The position numbers and the translations under genes were made by a program. Positions 8,609 to 16,678 of a stretch of DNA of 59,103 nt are shown here, piece after piece. The DNA is from Pseudomonadota bacterium (lineage in GTDB: Bacteria > Pseudomonadota > Gammaproteobacteria > Acidiferrobacterales > Acidiferrobacteraceae), in NCBI GenBank assembly GCA_021819245.1, contig JAKARI010000015.1:1-59103 (forward strand). Reading direction: 5' to 3'. How positions within the stretch are numbered: position 1 is the stretch's first letter; each line of letters opens with the position of its first letter. Under the pieces are notes generated by a model, which was not told where the DNA came from, ran no database searches, and saw only the letters and a list, made by a program, of their open reading frames with translations.

Positions 8609-10123
8609 TTACGCATCGCTTGCGCCGAGTCGCTCGCGCCAGTCGAGGAGGCGCCCCAGGAGACGCGCATCCATGAACGCCTCGGCCTCGAAGCGTCCGG
8701 CATAGGCGGCCTCCTCCTGGCGCAGCGTATAGCAGGTGTCGCCGCCGATGTCGAGAAACACCGCCGGGATGCCGGCCTCGATGAAGGCATAGTCGCGCTT
8801 TAGGAAAAAATCCGTGCAGCATACGCCCAGAAAGGCGCGCGCGCCGCGGCCTTTCAGATCGGCAAGGACCGCGCGCAAGTGCTCATACCGGGTGATGGTG
8901 ATGACAGCGAGATGACGCGCGCGTGCCAGGCCATAGGCCTCGCCGACCGCGCATCGCCCACACTCCGGGCAGCCGTCGCGATGCCGCCACTTGCACCATG
9001 CGGGCTTGGCGCAATACGGCAGGAGCACGGCATCGATGCGGCCAAGAAGGGTCTCGATCGAGGCCGTGCGGTCGGGACTAAACGTGCTGATCTGAGTCGC
9101 GGCCGCCAGACCCAGGTGGCGGCTTATGTGAAACCGCGCGGCACACAGGCGGCCAAGGTACGCGAGATCCGCGATCTCTACCCCGATGATGTCTGGCGGC
9201 GTGTTGCCGAGCACTACCAAAACTGTGGATTCCGCCTGGGCCATGCCGGTGCCCACGAGCGATTCCTGCAGGCGCACAAGCAGACCGCCATCGAGGCAAA
9301 GCACGCCGCCTGTGAAGCGCGCCGCGCGAATGGTCGTTCCGGGGCCGAGCCACACGTCCATGTAAAGGACGCCACCCGGGGTCTTGAGAAAGGCCTGGAT
9401 ATCTGCGGGGGGGTCATCGTCTGGCATCACGCACGGGGTCTCGCCCGCGACGGGCGGCGATTGACGATGCGGGCTTAGGCCCAAGGCGGCGGCGGTCTCG
9501 GCGGCGATGCGCGCGCACAGGGCCCCACGGTCGAGGTCCGGGACCAGGCCTTGCAGCGGTGCGAAACGGCTGCGGGCCGCGAGCAGGCCCTGTTCCGTGA
9601 GCTTCTCCAGGGGGAGCCGCAAGGTCTTTAGGAGCTCTTCGACATCCAGCGCAAGCGCCAATACCGCCTCGAATAATACGATCGCGCCATCGCGCCGCGC
9701 AAAGAGACTTGCGACCTTGCGTCCGGCCACCACGATATCGTTGGGGGCCAGAAATGCCGCATCGATCCCGTAGCCGCGAATGGCCGCCAGAAACGGCGCG
9801 GCGAGCGCGGACATGAGCCCATCCGGCGCCATCGCCGCATAGGGGCCGGCGGGCAGCGCCAGGACCGCGATTAGGGTATCGGGGTCGACAGACAGGCTGC
9901 CACCCCCGGTCAGGCGCCGCACGATGGGAAAGCGGTCCTTGACATAGGAGAGGCGCAGCGCGCGCCGCGGGTCCTCAAAGGCCCCTACGAGCGCGCAGCG
10001 GGTCAGGCGCGCGAAGCCAAGCACGGGCGCGCCGCCCGCGGCCTGCGCGATGTGCGCCTGCTCATAGGCCGGAAATTGCGCGGGGTTAAGCGTGCCGGCG
10101 TCGTGCCACGACAAGTTCCTCAT
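8609..10123 (-). CDS. Lipoate-protein ligase A-like / DUF116 fusion
   Basis: A 504-residue protein with three parts. Residues 1-240 are a lipoate/biotin ligase-type domain with the RRLTGGGSL nucleotide loop (70-77) and PNDIVVAGRK with the conserved Lys136. Residues 245-330 resemble the LplA C-terminal accessory domain. Residues 345-500 are a DUF116 domain with a dense cysteine set (C371, C377, C385, C388, C391, C435, C436, C464), suggestive of a metal or Fe-S site. The start overlaps ubiV by 4 bases (ATGA), so translation is coupled. The open frame extends to 10450, but only by running antisense-free through ubiV in another frame. The substrate is unknown. Confidence 0.8.
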   Translation of the reverse strand: MRNLSWHDAGTLNPAQFPAYEQAHIAQAAGGAPVLGFARLTRCALVGAFEDPRRALRLSYVKDRFPIVRRLTGGGSLSVDPDTLIAVLALPAGPYAAMAPDGLMSALAAPFLAAIRGYGIDAAFLAPNDIVVAGRKVASLFARRDGAIVLFEAVLALALDVEELLKTLRLPLEKLTEQGLLAARSRFAPLQGLVPDLDRGALCARIAAETAAALGLSPHRQSPPVAGETPCVMPDDDPPADIQAFLKTPGGVLYMDVWLGPGTTIRAARFTGGVLCLDGGLLVRLQESLVGTGMAQAESTVLVVLGNTPPDIIGVEIADLAYLGRLCAARFHISRHLGLAAATQISTFSPDRTASIETLLGRIDAVLLPYCAKPAWCKWRHRDGCPECGRCAVGEAYGLARARHLAVITITRYEHLRAVLADLKGRGARAFLGVCCTDFFLKRDYAFIEAGIPAVFLDIGGDTCYTLRQEEAAYAGRFEAEAFMDARLLGRLLDWRERLGASDA

Positions 10124-11004
10124 GGCAGCCGGCTGCGACCGGCGGTGCCGCGCCAATAGCCATTGGCATTGACGCCCCCCGTCAAGGGCGTAAGGCGCGC
10201 CGTGGCCTCGGCTGGCGAATAGCGCCCGTCTAAGACCCCGCGAAAGGCGTCTATGACAAGCCCGGTGTCGCGGCCCTCGGGCACGAGACGCAGGATGTCG
10301 ACACCCGCATCGCGCATGGCGTCGATCTCGCCTAAGGTGCTGATGGGCTGTCCGGCATGAATCTGAAGGCCGTTTATCGTAAGAAAGGCGTCGTCCTCCT
10401 GAGTCCGGACCAGGACCCCCTCGGGCTGCTGCTCGCAGACCCACTCGCACTGGTCCTTGCCGCGATCGGCGTTGCGGGCGCTAAAGCAGCGCGCCGAGTA
10501 GGCGAGCGCCGGGCGGCCGAAGGCCTGCGCCTCGCAGGCGATAGAGGCAGGACCGGCCGCGCGCAAGGCGGTAAGGGCGGCGCCGCTTAGCTCCACGGAC
10601 GCCACAAACCGCTCGGCCCCGGCCTCGGCCAGGATGGCCAAGGCGTCCTCGTTATAGATATTCAACGTGGCGCCGGCGACGAAGGGCGTGCCGCGACACA
10701 GGGCCACCGCGCTCATGTCGTTGGCCTCGATGCGGTAACGCCCGTTGGCACACAGCCTGCGGGTGGCCTTGAGCTCCGCCTCGCCATCGACCAGCACGAG
10801 GCTCGACAACACCACCTCCTTGCCGTGGTCGGCCAGCCGATCGGCAATGGCCAACCACTCGGCGAGCGTCGGGCCGCGGCGCTTGTAACAGACGGTCTCG
10901 CCAAGATAGACGATATCGACTGCCGTGCGCGCGATCGTCGCGTAGAAATCGGCGACCACATCGGCCGGCCAGAAAAACGGTATCGGGGCGAGAGCGAGCC
11001 TCAT
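10120..11004 (-). CDS. ubiV: UbiV, U32-family subunit for O2-independent ubiquinone hydroxylation
   Basis: A 294-residue U32 (formerly peptidase U32) protein. UbiV and UbiU form a 4Fe-4S heterodimer that hydroxylates ubiquinone precursors without O2, using prephenate as oxygen donor in E. coli. Fe-S ligands are visible as the early Cys in GETVCYKRRG and the trio in CFSARNADRGKDQCEWVCEQ. ATG 11004 overlaps the ubiU stop (ATGA); GTG 11010 is an alternative. It sits between ubiU and the lipoate-ligase fusion in one overlapping operon. Confidence 0.95.
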   Translation of the reverse strand: MRLALAPIPFFWPADVVADFYATIARTAVDIVYLGETVCYKRRGPTLAEWLAIADRLADHGKEVVLSSLVLVDGEAELKATRRLCANGRYRIEANDMSAVALCRGTPFVAGATLNIYNEDALAILAEAGAERFVASVELSGAALTALRAAGPASIACEAQAFGRPALAYSARCFSARNADRGKDQCEWVCEQQPEGVLVRTQEDDAFLTINGLQIHAGQPISTLGEIDAMRDAGVDILRLVPEGRDTGLVIDAFRGVLDGRYSPAEATARLTPLTGGVNANGYWRGTAGRSRLP

Positions 11005-12008
11005 CGCCACGGCCTATGAAACGCGCCCAGGGTCTGCTGGTGCCCCTCGGACAGGGCCGCGAGACCATCGGCCCATTCGCGGCGCACGGTAAATCCGGCG
11101 GGGTCGCGGCCACAGGCATCGAGGGCGGCGCGCATGATGGCGGTGACGCGCGCCACATAGGTCGGCGAACGCTGGCGGCCCTCGATCTTGATGGCGCGCA
11201 CCGGGATGCGCGCCAGATCCCCCAGGATCGGCAGGACATTGAGGCTGGTAGGCTCCTCGAGGGCGTAGGTTACACGATTATCCACTTTGAATCGTCCCTT
11301 GCAGATCGTGGGGTATCCGGCCTTTTCGGTCTTTTCGAAGGCATCGATCAAGATGCCGTTCAATCGCACGCGCCGGCGCCCGCCCTGCTCCTCCCAGCGT
11401 ACCGCCGAGGCTGGGGAGCAGGCCCCGCAGGTGTTGGGTGACACCCCGGTGGCATAAGAAGACAGCGCACAGCGCCCTTCGACCATGACGCACAGGCCGC
11501 CGAACCCGAATACCTCCAGGTCCAAGGGCGCGCTGGCGGCAAGTTTCGTGACCTGATTCAAGGCGAGCACCCGCGGCAGGATCGCGCGCGTGGCGCCGAA
11601 GCTCTCGGCATAAAACCGCAGGGACTCGGCATTGGTGGCGGAGCCCTGAACGGAGAGATGGCGCGGCACCTTGGGGTGGTGTTGTGCACAGTGCCGCAAG
11701 ACCGCGAGATCGGCGGCAATGATGGCATCGACGCCGGCCCCTATCGCCTGATCGGCCGTCTGGCGCCACAGGCCGACCCGCCCCGGCTGAGCATAGGTGT
11801 TGAGCGCCAGATAGACCTTGCGCTTGCGGTCATGCGCATAGCGGACACCCGAAGCAAGCTCGCTTGCCGTCAGATTGAGGCCGGGGAAATTGCGGGCGTT
11901 GGTCTCATTGCGCAGCCCGACATAGATGGCGTCGGCGCCGTGGTCGACCGCCGCCTCCAGGGCCGCCAGGGTCCCCGCCGGACAGACGAGTTCGGGAATG
12001 GGCGTCAT
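11001..12008 (-). CDS. ubiU: UbiU, U32-family subunit for O2-independent ubiquinone hydroxylation
   Basis: A 335-residue U32 protein and partner of UbiV. It starts MTPIPELVCPAGTL, typical of the family. The four Fe-S cysteines known from E. coli UbiU are visible: LCVMVEGRC, PNTCGACSPA and YPTICKGRF. KIEGRQRSPTYVA near the C-terminus is the U32 signature. ATG 12008 overlaps the stop of the upstream radical SAM gene by 4 bases. The run yhcC-ubiU-ubiV-ligase/DUF116 therefore looks translationally coupled and FNR-controlled from 13648. Confidence 0.95.
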   Translation of the reverse strand: MTPIPELVCPAGTLAALEAAVDHGADAIYVGLRNETNARNFPGLNLTASELASGVRYAHDRKRKVYLALNTYAQPGRVGLWRQTADQAIGAGVDAIIAADLAVLRHCAQHHPKVPRHLSVQGSATNAESLRFYAESFGATRAILPRVLALNQVTKLAASAPLDLEVFGFGGLCVMVEGRCALSSYATGVSPNTCGACSPASAVRWEEQGGRRRVRLNGILIDAFEKTEKAGYPTICKGRFKVDNRVTYALEEPTSLNVLPILGDLARIPVRAIKIEGRQRSPTYVARVTAIMRAALDACGRDPAGFTVRREWADGLAALSEGHQQTLGAFHRPWR

Positions 12009-12934
12009 GATACCCCCTCGCAGGCCAAGGCCCCCTGGCAGGTCCCGCGTCGCGCAAGCTCCGCGGTAATGGCATTCAACACCCGCCACTTCCCGAGACA
12101 CCAATCCGGGGCAAGCAGCAGGGCCGCCTTGGCGGTCCCGGTGAGACGATGAAAGGCGACGTGACGGGGCGTGCGCTCGACAAGGTCGGCGACAATACCG
12201 ACGTAGGTGGGCAGGTCGAGGGGCGCGAGCCGCCCGGCACGGTAATCATGCGCAAGCCGGCTGCCCCGCACGACATGCAGCGGGTGGATCTTGAGGCCCG
12301 CCACACCCAACGACAGCACCCGCGAAAGCGTGCGCAGGGCATGCTCGCGCCCCTCCTCCGGCAGACCCACGATGAGGTGCGTGCATACCGGAATGCGGTA
12401 GCGCTGCAGCAAAGAGACCGCCTCGCGATACTCTTCATAGCCATGGCCACGGTTGACGCGCGCAAGGGTCTCGTCAAAGCTCGATTGCAGCCCGAGTTCC
12501 ACCCACACCGAAAGGCCCTGATCCCGGTACGAGGCGATCAGGGCGACCACGGCCTCCGGCAGGCAATCGGGGCGCGTGCCCACACTGAGGCCCACGACCC
12601 CGGGCACGGCCAGGGCCTCCTCATAGGCGGCCTTGAGGCGCGACAGGGGGGCATAGGTATTCGTATAGGTCTGAAAATAGGCAATGACCTTGCGCGCGCG
12701 GGTCCGTCGCCGGACGCAACGCATCCCCTCGCGCACCTGATCTGCGATGCCGCGGGCCTCAGTGGCGGGATGAAATGACTTATTGTTGCAAAACGTACAC
12801 CCGCCACGGCCCCGCGACCCGTCGCGATTCGGGCAGGTAAAGCCGGCGTCTATGGTCACCTTGTGGACGCGCTCACCGAATTGACGGAGAAGCTGCTGTC
12901 CGAAGGTCTCAACGAACTCGGAAAGAACGGCCAT
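12005..12934 (-). CDS. yhcC: Radical SAM protein, YhcC (TIGR01212) family
   Basis: A 309-residue radical SAM protein of the YhcC type. The cluster motif is spread as CPNRDG...GGCTFCNN, characteristic of this family, and VELGLQSSFDETL and LIVGLPEEG follow in the barrel. The family is associated with anaerobic metabolism and tRNA or amino-acid chemistry, but its reaction is not established. ATG 12934 aligns with relatives (MAVLSEFVETFGQQL) and overlaps the end of the preceding radical SAM gene by 26 bases. The frame extends to 13000. Confidence 0.9.
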   Translation of the reverse strand: MAVLSEFVETFGQQLLRQFGERVHKVTIDAGFTCPNRDGSRGRGGCTFCNNKSFHPATEARGIADQVREGMRCVRRRTRARKVIAYFQTYTNTYAPLSRLKAAYEEALAVPGVVGLSVGTRPDCLPEAVVALIASYRDQGLSVWVELGLQSSFDETLARVNRGHGYEEYREAVSLLQRYRIPVCTHLIVGLPEEGREHALRTLSRVLSLGVAGLKIHPLHVVRGSRLAHDYRAGRLAPLDLPTYVGIVADLVERTPRHVAFHRLTGTAKAALLLAPDWCLGKWRVLNAITAELARRGTCQGALACEGVS

Positions 12935-13607
12935 CGGTCGACTCCAGGGGTCGCGCGCGAAACGCGACACCCAACTCGCGCGCGATACGCGCGCAGGCAT
13001 CCAGATCCACGCCCTCTAGCCCTGCGATCGCAGTGAGGGTGACACGCGGGACGAAGGTCCGGGCACGCGCGGCGAACGCCAGCATGGCGGAATAACTGCC
13101 GGCCCGGCTGGGGCGGCAGAGGTGTTCATAAGTCCGCTCGTCGGCGGCATTGAGCGAGATGGAGACATGGTCTACCAGGCCGGCCAATTCCGGGGCGACA
13201 TCGCGGCCATGAATGAGGCTCGCCAGGCCGTCGGTATTGAGACGTATCGGCCGGCCCTCGGTCCGCAGCGCGGCCGCCACCGCGAGCAGGGCCGACCAGC
13301 GCGTCGTAGGCTCCCCCAGCCCGCAAAAGACGTATTCGGTGCATGATCCCAAGGCGCGCGCGGCCTCGATCACCGCCGTGACCGAGGGTTCTTCGGATGC
13401 GCGCAGGCGCAGCCGCGCCTCCCCGACCGTCCAGAGGCCGTGAAACTTGGGGCAGAACCGGCAGCGCAAGGTACAGCGGTTGGTGAGGTTCAGATAGACC
13501 GCGTCGCGCAGGCGATAAGCGGCCACGGCCGACGGCGCCCGCCCGGCGTCGTCACCCCTAGCCACCGCCATCGTTCCAGGCACACCCCACCCCACCTTCA
13601 CATTCAT
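12909..13607 (-). CDS. Radical SAM protein, TatD-associated (TIGR04038-like)
   Basis: A 232-residue radical SAM protein. YLNLTNRCTLRCRFCPKF carries the C-x3-C-x2-C cluster site, and YVFCGLGEPTTRW is the GGE-like SAM-binding motif. This short form matches the group usually found beside TatD-family nucleases, though no TatD gene is present here. Its product is unknown. It is the first gene of the minus-strand ubiU/ubiV operon. The ATG at 13607 lies 41 bases from the FNR box. Class II spacing predicts a start at 13613 with a TAgAcT hexamer at 13625-13620, leaving only a 6-base leader; an ATG at 13571 is possible. Confidence 0.84.
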   Translation of the reverse strand: MNVKVGWGVPGTMAVARGDDAGRAPSAVAAYRLRDAVYLNLTNRCTLRCRFCPKFHGLWTVGEARLRLRASEEPSVTAVIEAARALGSCTEYVFCGLGEPTTRWSALLAVAAALRTEGRPIRLNTDGLASLIHGRDVAPELAGLVDHVSISLNAADERTYEHLCRPSRAGSYSAMLAFAARARTFVPRVTLTAIAGLEGVDLDACARIARELGVAFRARPLESTDGRSFRVR

Positions 13608-13647: not shown

Positions 13648-13661
13648 TTGACCAATATCAA
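13648..13661. promoter_or_regulatory. FNR/ANR box between the ubiUV operon and nrdD
   Basis: The site reads TTGAC-N4-ATCAA and serves two divergent units: the radical SAM-yhcC-ubiU-ubiV-ligase operon on the minus strand and nrdD on the plus strand. For nrdD, TATCTA at 13684-13689 or TATAAT at 13688-13693 could be the -10 element, placing the box near -41 to -45. AAGGAG at 13706-13711 is the nrdD ribosome site. Confidence 0.87.
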
Positions 13662-13721: not shown

Positions 13722-15722
13722 ATGGTCAAAAAAATCCCCGATAGCATACGCAAACGCGATGGCCGTGTCGTACCCTTCGATGATCGCAAGATCTACTACG
13801 CCCTGCTGCGCGCCGGGTTGGCGACGGGCGAATACGGCCCCGAGGAGGCCAAGCGCATGACGGCGGAGGTGACCGCCGTGTGTCCCTCCGGGAGTCCGGA
13901 CATAGAGACCGTTCAGGACCTTGTGGAAGATAAGCTCCTCGCCTGCGGTTACCGGCGCACTGCCCGCGCCTACATCGTCTATCGCGAAAAGCGGCGCATG
14001 ACGCGCGAAGAAGGCAAGGTCCGCGTCGAGGTCGAGGAGGCGATCACGGAATACCTGGATCGTCGCGACTGGCGGGTCCAGGCCAACGCCAATCAAGGCT
14101 ACTCGCTGGGCGGGCTCATCTTGAGCGTATCCGGCAAGGTGGTCGCGAACTTCTGGTTGAACCACGTCTACCCGAAGGAGGTCGGCGAGGCGCACCGCGA
14201 CGGGGCGCTGCACATCCACGACCTGGACATGCTGTCGGGCTATTGTGCCGGGTGGTCGCTGCGCACGCTGCTTACAGAAGGCCTCAACGGGGTCGCCAAC
14301 AAGGTCGAGGCGAGCCCGCCAAAACACCTCTCGAGCGCCGTCGGCCAGATCGTCAATTTCCTCGGCACCCTGCAAAACGAATGGGCCGGCGCGCAGGCCT
14401 TTAGTTCGTTTGATACCTACCTCGCGCCCTTCGTGCGCAAGGACCACATGCGCTACGAGGAGGTCCTGCAATGCATTCAGGAGCTCATCTATAACCTGAA
14501 CATCCCTTCGCGCTGGGGGACGCAGACCCCGTTTACCAATCTGACCTTCGACTGGACCTGCCCCGAGGACCTGCGGCAACAGGTGCCTGTCATAGGCGGC
14601 GAGGAGATGCCCTTTACCTATGGGGATCTGGCGCCGGAGATGGCCATGATCAACAAGGCCTATCTCGAGGTCATGGAGACCGGAGACGCCAAGGGGCGAG
14701 TCTTCACCTTCCCGATTCCGACTTACAACATCACCCCGGACTTCGACTGGGAAGGCGAGAATGTGGAGCGCCTGTTCTCCCTGACCGCAAAGTACGGCCT
14801 GCCGTATTTCCAGAACTTCATGAACTCGGATCTCAAGCCGCATATGGTCCGGTCCATGTGCTGCCGCCTGCAGCTCGACTTGACCGAGCTTTTGAAGCGC
14901 GGCAACGGTCTCTTTGGATCGGCTGAGCAGACCGGGTCTCTGGGGGTCGTCACCATCAATTGCGCGCGCCTCGGTTACCTCTATCGCGGCGACGAACAAA
15001 GCCTCATGGGGCACCTCGACCGCTTGCTCGAGCTCGCACGCACAAGCCTCGAGATCAAGCGCAAGACCATACAGACCTACATGGACCAGGGCCTGTTTCC
15101 GTACACGAAGCGCTATCTGGGCACGCTGCGTAACCACTTCTCGACGATAGGGGTCAACGGAATCAACGAGATGGTGCGCAACTTCACGGCCGGGGCCGCG
15201 GACATCACGGATACTGCGGGTCATGCGCTGGCCTGCCGCCTGCTCGATCATGTGCGCGCGCGGCTTGCGGGCTTTCAGGAACAGACCGGCCACCTCTACA
15301 ATCTCGAGGCCTCCCCGGCCGAGGGCGCGACCTACCGGTTCGCGCGCGCGGACCGCAAGCGGTTTCCCGGGATCCTGCAGGCCGGGACCGCCGATCGTCC
15401 CTACTACACAAACTCATCTCAGTTGCCGGTCGGATTTACGGATGACCCCTTCGAGGCCCTGGAACGCCAGGAGGACCTGCAGCGGCGCTATACCGGGGGC
15501 ACGGTCCTGCACCTTTACATGAATGAGAGGCTGTCTAGCGCATCGGTGGCACGCGACCTCGTGCGGCGCGCGCTCACACGCTTTCGCCTGCCCTATATCA
15601 CCGTGACACCGACGTTTTCGATATGCCCGCGCCACGGCTATCTCGCGGGCGAGCATGTCTTTTGCCCGACCTGCGACGAAGAGGCGTGGGCGCGGCGGCG
15701 GGCCCTGGCACAGGGCGAATAA
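13722..15722 (+). CDS. nrdD: Anaerobic (class III) ribonucleotide reductase, catalytic chain without glycyl-radical domain
   Basis: A 666-residue class III NrdD that reduces NTPs to dNTPs. Residues 1-95 are an ATP-cone (IRKRDGRVVPFDDRKIY). The barrel contains LGTLQNEWAGAQAFSSFD, MCCRLQLDLTELLKRGNGLFG and GSLGVVTINCARLGYL. The C-terminal zinc-finger region is CPRHGYLAGEHVFCPTC. It ends there: the RVxGY glycyl-radical motif that NrdD normally carries is absent and is found in the next small gene, after one TAA in the same frame. ATG 13722 has AAGGAG upstream; the open frame reaches back to 13440. An FNR box lies 60 bases upstream. Confidence 0.95.
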   Translation: MVKKIPDSIRKRDGRVVPFDDRKIYYALLRAGLATGEYGPEEAKRMTAEVTAVCPSGSPDIETVQDLVEDKLLACGYRRTARAYIVYREKRRMTREEGKVRVEVEEAITEYLDRRDWRVQANANQGYSLGGLILSVSGKVVANFWLNHVYPKEVGEAHRDGALHIHDLDMLSGYCAGWSLRTLLTEGLNGVANKVEASPPKHLSSAVGQIVNFLGTLQNEWAGAQAFSSFDTYLAPFVRKDHMRYEEVLQCIQELIYNLNIPSRWGTQTPFTNLTFDWTCPEDLRQQVPVIGGEEMPFTYGDLAPEMAMINKAYLEVMETGDAKGRVFTFPIPTYNITPDFDWEGENVERLFSLTAKYGLPYFQNFMNSDLKPHMVRSMCCRLQLDLTELLKRGNGLFGSAEQTGSLGVVTINCARLGYLYRGDEQSLMGHLDRLLELARTSLEIKRKTIQTYMDQGLFPYTKRYLGTLRNHFSTIGVNGINEMVRNFTAGAADITDTAGHALACRLLDHVRARLAGFQEQTGHLYNLEASPAEGATYRFARADRKRFPGILQAGTADRPYYTNSSQLPVGFTDDPFEALERQEDLQRRYTGGTVLHLYMNERLSSASVARDLVRRALTRFRLPYITVTPTFSICPRHGYLAGEHVFCPTCDEEAWARRRALAQGE

Positions 15723-15809
15723 GGCAAGAGGGGCGCGTCAACGAATCTTCAATGTCCCAGTAGGGGCGACCTTTTCAAAAAGGGGCCCATGAAGGCGAGG
15801 AGGAGATGT

Positions 15810-15992
15810 ATGAATGAGGCGATAAGCGACAAGGAGCATCCGGGCGGCGATCTGCGTCCCGAGGAGCGGCAGGTGTGCGAGGTGTGGACGCGGGTGATGG
15901 GTTACCATCGCCCGGTGGCCTCGTTTAACGAGGGCAAGAAGGGCGAACACTACGAGCGGCAGTTCTTCGTGGAGGATAGGCGCTCGGCGTGA
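15810..15992 (+). CDS. Separate glycyl-radical domain of class III ribonucleotide reductase
   Basis: A 60-residue protein ending in WTRVMGYHRPVASFNEGKKG, which matches the C-terminal glycyl-radical segment of NrdD; Gly31 in RVMGY is the predicted radical residue. It has its own strong ribosome site AGGAGG at 15798-15803, six bases before ATG 15810. It lies in the same frame as nrdD with a single TAA (15720-15722) between them and no other stop. The stop of this gene overlaps the GTG of nrdG (GTGA). It would dock on the catalytic chain, much as GrcA docks on pyruvate formate-lyase. Confidence 0.9.
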   Translation: MNEAISDKEHPGGDLRPEERQVCEVWTRVMGYHRPVASFNEGKKGEHYERQFFVEDRRSA

Positions 15993-16678
15993 CGCTGCGT
16001 CTTGGCGGCCTCGTGCCCTGGAGCAGCGTGGACTATCCAGGGTATCAGGCCGCCGTCCTGTTCGTGACCGGTTGCCCGTGGCGCTGCCCCTATTGCCATA
16101 ATAGCCACCTCTGGGCGGGCGATGCGGGCCTGTCGTGGCCGGCGGTACGCTCATTCCTCGAGACCCGCGTGGGCCTCCTGGACGCGGTGGTCGTGAGTGG
16201 GGGCGAGCCACTCGACCAGGTCACATCGATTCATGAGGCCCTCAAAGAGATCCGCGGGCTGGGATTTGGGACCGCGCTGCATACCGCGGGGGTCTCGGCG
16301 CGGCGCCTTCAGGGGCTGCTCGCCGATCTCGACTGGGTGGGGCTCGACATCAAGGGGCCTTTTTCCCGCTACCAGTCGATCACCACGCGCGCAAGAAGCG
16401 GCGACGCGGCGCGTGCGTCGGTCGAAATCCTGCTGGCAAGCGGGACGCCCCACGAGCTCCGCACGACCGTCCATCCGGACTTGCTCTCCGGCGATGACCT
16501 CGTGGCGATGCTAAACGAGCTCGCGGCCCTGGGCGCGCCGTCTGTGACATTGAAGAACTTTCGGCCCATGGGATGTCCGGACTCGCGGCTTGCGGCCACC
16601 TATCGTCCATGGCTCACCCCCGAACTGGCCGCTCGGTTGCGGGCGATCATGCCGGGGGTGGTTCTGCCCACGAGCTAG
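15989..16678 (+). CDS. nrdG: Anaerobic ribonucleotide reductase activating protein
   Basis: A 229-residue radical SAM activase (NrdG2/TIGR02495-like) that generates the glycyl radical on the reductase. The cluster motif is C-x3-C-x2-C in GCPWRCPYCHN, followed by VVVSGGEPLDQ (SAM motif). DWVGLDIKGPFSRYQSITT is typical of this activase class. The GTG start overlaps the stop of the small glycyl-radical gene, so the activase and its probable target are translationally coupled. Confidence 0.93.
   Translation: MTLRLGGLVPWSSVDYPGYQAAVLFVTGCPWRCPYCHNSHLWAGDAGLSWPAVRSFLETRVGLLDAVVVSGGEPLDQVTSIHEALKEIRGLGFGTALHTAGVSARRLQGLLADLDWVGLDIKGPFSRYQSITTRARSGDAARASVEILLASGTPHELRTTVHPDLLSGDDLVAMLNELAALGAPSVTLKNFRPMGCPDSRLAATYRPWLTPELAARLRAIMPGVVLPTS

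Follow-up and report, generated by a model that had tools for sequence, protein, structure and literature searches.

Class III ribonucleotide reductase (RNR) is described as NrdD together with NrdG, for example in PMC4009431 (papers are cited here by PMC number, from excerpts of their text). The window, i.e. the whole stretch of 59,103 nt that was analysed, carries an nrdD gene whose product has no radical glycine, directly followed by a small gene whose product has one. This raises the question of whether the locus is one gene interrupted by an error or a reductase made of two chains. The data presented here support a real two-gene class III RNR that is conserved in relatives and has its radical glycine on the small chain. 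We hold it to be highly probable that the anaerobic (class III) RNR of this locus consists of two chains, a core with ATP-cone, barrel and zinc ribbon, and a 60-aa chain serving as the radical subunit.

Layout of the nrdD locus

The nrdD core (13722-15722, forward strand; ATG at 13722, TAA at 15720-15722) encodes 666 aa with an ATP-cone (PF03477, residues 9-92), a catalytic barrel and a zinc-ribbon motif, and without a radical glycine. It scores 1091.6 bits with NF006126 (PRK08270; cut-off 548), 448.1 bits with TIGR02487 (cut-off 326.35) and 565 bits with the Pfam NRDD model PF13597, of which it covers positions 2-530. The chain ends 15 residues past the CPRHGYLAGEHVFCPTC motif, and a CxxHx9CxxC pattern, likely a zinc ribbon judging from the sequence, lies wholly inside the core at 15624-15674 (forward strand, residues 635-651). 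The zinc ligand motif of Thermotoga maritima NrdD is CxxxHx6CxxC (PMC4493059). A zinc site shared across the chains, with a cysteine of the small protein as fourth ligand, was considered and rejected, as the core itself has a C-H-C-C set like that of T. maritima NrdD (PMC4493059).

After the TAA follows a spacer of 29 sense codons (15723-15809, forward strand) with AGGAGG at 15798-15803, and then the small gene (15810-15992, forward strand; ATG at 15810, TGA at 15990-15992). Its product is a 60-aa glycyl-radical domain (GRD) protein with Gly31 inside RVMGY (codon 15900-15902), and it matches PF13597 at positions 531-562 with 30.2 bits (cut-off 26.2 bits), the only match of this protein in a Pfam scan at E ≤ 0.1. 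Thus, the Pfam NRDD model is cut exactly in two, 2-530 on the core and 531-562 on the small ORF. The computed masses are 75 kDa for the core and 7 kDa for the small protein. The radical-SAM activase gene nrdG2 (15989-16678, forward strand; TIGR02495, 164.8 bits, cut-off 131.15) begins at a GTG (15989), so that its first 4 nt are shared with the small gene. A sequence-only reading of this DNA had described the locus in the same way, and its main points were borne out: the 666-aa core that ends after the zinc motif and lacks the radical glycine (from the sequence and from the division of Pfam NRDD), the 60-residue GRD-only gene with Gly31, AGGAGG and nrdG overlap, and the single TAA with 29 sense codons in one frame between the two genes.

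A putative FNR-type box, TTGACCAATATCAA, is located at 13648-13661 (forward strand), 60 bp upstream of the core start codon. Such boxes occur at five places in the window (2857, 4626, 6165, 13648 and 21278), giving 7 strand matches versus 0.16 expected, which suggests that the region is under anaerobic regulation. On the minus strand next to nrdD (10120-13607) we noted ubiU (UbiU model over cut-off), a U32-family gene, an MnmL/YtqA radical-SAM gene and a TatD-linked radical-SAM gene.

The window genome (2.25 Mb, 54 contigs, 91% complete) also encodes a PF02867 reductase whose best matches are class I alpha-subunit models, so the nrdD enzyme would be the anaerobic one. As a side observation, the host class I NrdA (contig 49, L380) is a 1264-aa open frame with a weak intein N-terminal match of 24.3 bits, against a cut-off of 24.5.

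Conservation and selection in the family

One objection is that the gene is truly one chain and that the stop codon stems from an error in sequencing or assembly, or from a mutation that recently disabled it. The window parts are indeed in one frame and parted by a single stop codon, and the genome is a draft of 54 contigs. We therefore turn to the relatives, which refute this objection. Among 60 related genomes searched for NRDD, the window genome included, NRDD was found in 18, namely the window genome and 17 others of its family, each with two matches; none was found in the remaining 42 related genomes, all of which lie outside the family. Reading all 18 loci in the DNA, we found the core closed by a stop codon and the GRD in a separate ORF with an ATG and a nearby Shine–Dalgarno (SD)-like word, in some cases overlapping the core end. 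Taking the core as reference, 6 genomes have the GRD in frame 0, 7 in frame +1 and 5 in frame +2. Hence, the possibility raised with the sequence-only reading that the TAA is a sequencing error did not hold, as 17 further family genomes are split and 12 of them in another frame, while the proposed check of homologous loci found the split kept in 18 of 18 nrdD-bearing family genomes. The other outcome that it had named as fatal, that relatives all have one fused chain, did not come about either: one-chain relatives do exist, yet within the family every one of the 18 genomes is split.

Moreover, purifying selection acts on both halves, and to a similar degree. In 14 genomes of the genus, after pairs with dS ≤ 0.05 or saturated dS were dropped, the median dN/dS was 0.045 for the GRD (36 codons, 72 of 91 pairs) and 0.042 for the core (500 codons, 86 of 91 pairs). 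The conserved split, the mixed frames and the purifying selection together exclude sequencing error and pseudogene, and the split is also present in named isolates and on plasmids (see below), so that an error or recent mutation retains practically no probability.

Two genes in independent frames

The same three observations make it very unlikely that programmed read-through or frameshifting yields a fused chain, a reading for which the shared frame in 35 adjacent pairs could be cited. Over the 123 adjacent split pairs collected in this work (duplicate loci dropped; L100 and L186 left out as not adjacent), the three frames are occupied 35/46/42 times, and the remaining 88 pairs would require +1 or +2 shifts. 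GRD starts usually have SD-like words of their own: a word of at least 4 nt was present at the chosen start in 121 of 123 pairs, an upper estimate, since such words were among the grounds for choosing the start. GRD starts lie at a median distance of 28 nt from the core stop, and in 23 of these pairs the GRD starts before or on that stop. For the window, the sequence-only reading had proposed a simple origin by one stop codon plus a gained ribosome site; the shared frame on which this rested is a coincidence to be expected about one time in three, as it is seen in 6 of 18 family genomes and in 35 of 123 adjacent pairs.

A fused product is further opposed by genomes in which the two genes are not neighbours. 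Core and GRD lie on different contigs in four genomes (G802, G803, G1106 and G953), where no GRD was seen in the stretch read downstream of the core, and they are about 9 kb apart in G714. In G802 and G1106 an NrdG-like gene adjoins the unlinked GRD, which fits the GRD as substrate of the activase. Extra GRD copies were found in G321, G864, G924, G1116 and G941, and locus L186 (G806) has an adjacent GRD plus a second one on the other strand. By eye, the extra GRD of G321 adjoins ORFs resembling SSB and RecT. Core and GRD are separate, co-conserved genes in independent frames, similarly constrained, with unlinked copies in some genomes.

The existence of such copies brings up another explanation, that the small protein is a GrcA-like repair or regulatory accessory, and that the core obtains its radical from elsewhere or has a different job itself. 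Extra copies in several genomes would fit this role, as would GRDs without a nearby core in viral contigs and on a plasmid (see below). However, the core has no radical glycine that could be repaired, the window genome, which is 91% complete, contains no NRDD match other than the core and the small ORF, and the small ORF sits between nrdD and nrdG and overlaps the latter. We thus consider an accessory role unlikely; most likely, the small ORF encodes the radical-bearing subunit of this class III enzyme.

Occurrence in wider samples, named genomes and plasmids

In a class sample of 369 genomes, NRDD was present in 38, as 28 two-piece cases (all 28 read in the DNA), 7 single matches and 3 fragments. 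A phylum sample of 398 genomes, which overlaps the class sample, gave 57 genomes with NRDD: 15 are split, as read in the DNA of each, 41 have a single match and 1 has a partial match. In a second class of the phylum, NRDD occurred in 35 of 289 genomes, 24 split and 11 one-chain; 13 of these 24 were read in the DNA and the other 11 are two pieces in different open frames. On reading, one genome of the second class (G1000, L383) that had looked two-piece proved to encode a single chain whose linker is long.

A scan of named genomes returned at least 586 relatives. Of the best 80, split loci number 70 and fused ones 6; a split Pseudomonadaceae core led the query, which biases this sample. The remaining 4 loci show no GRD: two of them are at contig ends, and in the other two (L173 and L175) the GRD is on another contig. 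The split form was seen in Pseudomonas brassicacearum, P. chlororaphis, Stutzerimonas stutzeri, Janthinobacterium, Hydrogenophaga, Xanthomonas massiliensis and Microbulbifer marinus. P. aeruginosa is absent from the best 80 of the at least 586 relatives. Its NrdD is given as 76 kDa (PMC12284477), and because of this mass and of the split in the named Pseudomonas and Stutzerimonas relatives of our sample, P. aeruginosa NrdD is probably split as well.

Plasmids carry both layouts. RefSeq names both halves on plasmids of Cupriavidus necator H16, Bradyrhizobium barranii and Sulfuricurvum kujiense, and a Paracoccus plasmid record labels its small half 'hypothetical protein'. The one-chain form is found on Acidiphilium and Actinomyces oris plasmids, and Allochromatium vinosum pALVIN01 has a GRD but no core. 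The C. necator H16 plasmid pHG1 has the same layout as the window, with a 676-aa core, a 66-aa GRD and nrdG, all annotated in RefSeq. The computed mass of this core is 76.19 kDa; Siedow et al. (1999) reportedly described a 76.2-kDa NrdD, which equals this value. The nrdD and nrdG genes of C. necator are cited as required for complete denitrification (PMC2864759). Should many Pseudomonadota have their radical on a third, small protein, work that takes the large chain alone for NrdD, whether by reconstitution, knockout or annotation, may have missed a needed subunit; the C. necator H16 core is an example of such a large chain.

Evolution of the split

The two-gene layout is old and is found in many bacteria. 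Trees were built from 139 rows with FastTree and from 44 rows with IQ-TREE, and rooted on one-chain relatives taken as outgroup. Both show, with uneven support, a large, mostly split clade in which one-chain groups are nested. In the 139-row tree the split is far older than the window genome, so that the simple local origin assumed by the sequence-only reading is not supported. In none of 200 bootstrap trees of the 44-row set does a branch set all split rows apart; the AU test did not reject such an arrangement (delta lnL 45.1, p 0.0635). Judged from these sequences, re-fusion within the split clade is likely, and the fused linkers of L195 and of G1000 (L383) retain a stretch resembling the N-terminal motif of the small protein.

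When viral rows were included (176-row tree), further split rows appeared among the fused ones (L360-L365, L356 and L325), some of them on long branches. Moreover, in two genomes of one genus (G697, L388; G765, L095), an NrdD that looks E. coli-type by eye has a TAG between the zinc motif and the GRD, followed by an ATG. These split rows among the fused and the E. coli-type split suggest that splitting at the point between zinc motif and GRD recurred, and the split thus seems to have arisen more than once. Since one-chain relatives occur as well, some of them within the split clade, function in this subfamily does not require the split.

Structure prediction and proposed mechanism

A fold of the read-through chain was predicted by AF2 from an alignment of 129 rows, with a mean pLDDT of 89.9 and a pTM of 0.86. 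The 10-residue blocks of the GRD between 711 and 750 had pLDDT 90-95, the spacer (677-705) was below 50, and Gly31, residue 727 of this chain, was placed between strands 720-725 and 728-731. A first fold from 67 rows was poorer (pLDDT 78.4, pTM 0.76, GRD blocks 61-84). The 36 best PDB matches of the predicted fold are class III RNRs. Since the chains were tethered and one-chain rows were part of the alignment, docking was favoured by design, and the prediction shows compatibility of the two parts, not docking.

In the mechanism that we propose, NrdG2 would abstract a hydrogen atom from Gly31 of the 60-aa chain, which would dock at the place of the C-terminal loop in one-chain NrdD; the reference for this C-terminal GRD docking is P. 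copri NrdD (PMC11226230). The small chain would then pass the radical to the active-site cysteine and regain it after turnover. A working enzyme would therefore involve radical transfer between chains. A likely benefit is that O2 cleavage at the radical glycine would cost only a replaceable 7-kDa part and spare the 75-kDa core. We infer complex formation, activation by NrdG, inter-chain radical transfer and the oxygen-damage benefit. With such a natural system one could add, titrate, exchange or damage the radical-bearing part independently of the rest of a glycyl-radical enzyme, and both inter-chain radical transfer and oxygen repair would become directly testable.

Comparison with known systems

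The locus appears to be a variant of class III RNR, with NTP reduction via a glycyl radical predicted from the sequence. It shares with one-chain NrdD (phage T4, T. maritima, Prevotella copri, Streptococcus thermophilus) the family models, ATP-cone, zinc-ribbon motif, RVxGY-type GRD and NrdG activase, and its predicted fold matches the structures of these enzymes. Unlike in those structures, the window GRD is on its own 60-aa chain, encoded by its own gene, with the split after the zinc motif. Within the PRK08270 subfamily, the locus has the barrel, the zinc-ribbon motif (metal putative), RVMGY in the operon and NrdG, whereas the radical glycine and the barrel are not on one chain; we filed it as a two-chain variant.

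Differing from GrcA/YfiD, the window GRD matches only the NrdD family in Pfam and its core has no radical glycine of its own. The PFL-type Gly_radical domain that characterizes GrcA/YfiD was not found in the 60-aa protein by the Pfam scan at E ≤ 0.1. Like the window GRD, YfiD/GrcA of E. coli and Y06I of phage T4 are separate small radical carriers, in their case for pyruvate formate-lyase (PFL) (PMC8683613). YfiD is cellular and Y06I phage-borne, both restore the oxygen-cleaved enzyme, and they are presented as the only validated spare parts, both for PFL, with the remark that others may exist (PMC8683613). The GrcA parallel drawn in the sequence-only reading is thus apt for the small radical carrier but incomplete, as YfiD and Y06I rescue a cleaved enzyme, whereas no radical glycine was ever part of the core chain here.

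NrdJa/NrdJb of P. aeruginosa is a class II RNR spread over two genes of one operon, as is the window RNR (PMC4520616). Split NrdJ is common in gammaproteobacteria and was called, in this 2015 paper, the only split RNR outside viruses (PMC4520616). NrdJab is unlike the window RNR in being B12-dependent and of another family, with NrdJb acting in thiol-disulfide exchange and lacking a radical glycine; B12-type models matched the core only at residues about 6-106, the ATP-cone region, and far below their cut-offs. A separate GRD subunit of NrdD is not described in the excerpts of open-licence PMC papers on RNR that we drew on (PMC9669993, PMC9531940, PMC4390871, PMC11226230, PMC4493059, PMC5645315, PMC4860495, PMC12284477, PMC3019208, PMC2864759, PMC3653736, PMC4009431 and PMC4520616), and earlier notice in the subscription literature is possible.

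Stand-alone GRDs in viral contigs

Scanning IMG/VR with the GRD alignment gave at least 528 related viral stretches. Among the best 80 of these (L216-L295), 79 had no core in the locus and 1 had a core, within flanks of up to 5 kb that are often cut by contig ends. Fifty of the 80 contigs were searched over their whole length (6.8-183 kb), and 49 contained the GRD only and 1 also a core; viral records are often fragments, and 66 of the 80 GRD ends are distinct. The glycine and GYxRPx4NxGK are kept in 80 of the 80 best viral GRDs (of at least 528), and in eight GRD neighbourhoods several ORFs looked phage-like by eye (tail, terminase/portal, replication). Cores of the subfamily also occur in viral contigs: among the best 80 of 155 relatives, 53 are fused, 23 split, 3 core-only and 1 at a contig end.

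As viral sequences carry the GRD alone, the radical site may act as a swappable spare part. The viral GRDs are candidate RNR 'spare parts', and the simplest reading is that they supply a fresh radical part to a host core; it is possible that they act as decoys or regulators. Extended to cells, the radical site would be an exchangeable cartridge, encoded by a cellular gene that is sometimes unlinked or multicopy, and carried alone by phages to charge, repair or take over the host NrdD core during infection. We put this extension at roughly even chances. If true, PFL would no longer be the only glycyl-radical enzyme with spare-part proteins, a possibility that had been raised before. The viral GRD genes also point to a phage accessory gene of very small size that would serve dNTP supply.

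Isolated phages offered few matches, and hence the viral finding rests on metagenomic contigs. Against 50,697 phage records, the window GRD gave no match at E 0.01; a viral GRD hit 8 records at E 10, with E < 0.001 only for ANMV-1, which is a GRD-only protein, and MT835493, which is one chain. The ANMV-1 protein AJP62049 (L298, 3186-3620; 144 aa) is annotated as anaerobic ribonucleoside triphosphate reductase, and consists of a GRD and a zinc-ribbon-like stretch without a barrel. Thus, GRD-only viral genes can pass for whole reductases: this protein had been taken for an oxygen-sensitive RNR, and hence as an argument for an anaerobic host. All 7 GRDs tested against PHROGs fall into phrog_4132, 'unknown function', and BFVD holds a matching 71-aa 'fragment'.

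Cases of phage nrdD genes split by introns, inteins or endonucleases are on record (PMC3653736). In phage contig G800 the core ORF, 967 aa long, contains an insert, and some 110 kb separate it from the GRD. The GRD gene (L296, 555-1581) is itself broken immediately behind the codon of the radical glycine, where about 0.8 kb carry an ORF that looks LAGLIDADG-like by eye; a group I intron was not found in this GRD insert with Rfam at E ≤ 1. Finally, an extra N-terminal Cys-rich stretch, PCxH...CxxGR..P.DC..C, was seen by eye in viral GRDs L233, L234, L268, L269, L279 and L282-L285, of which a pattern count caught L279 only.
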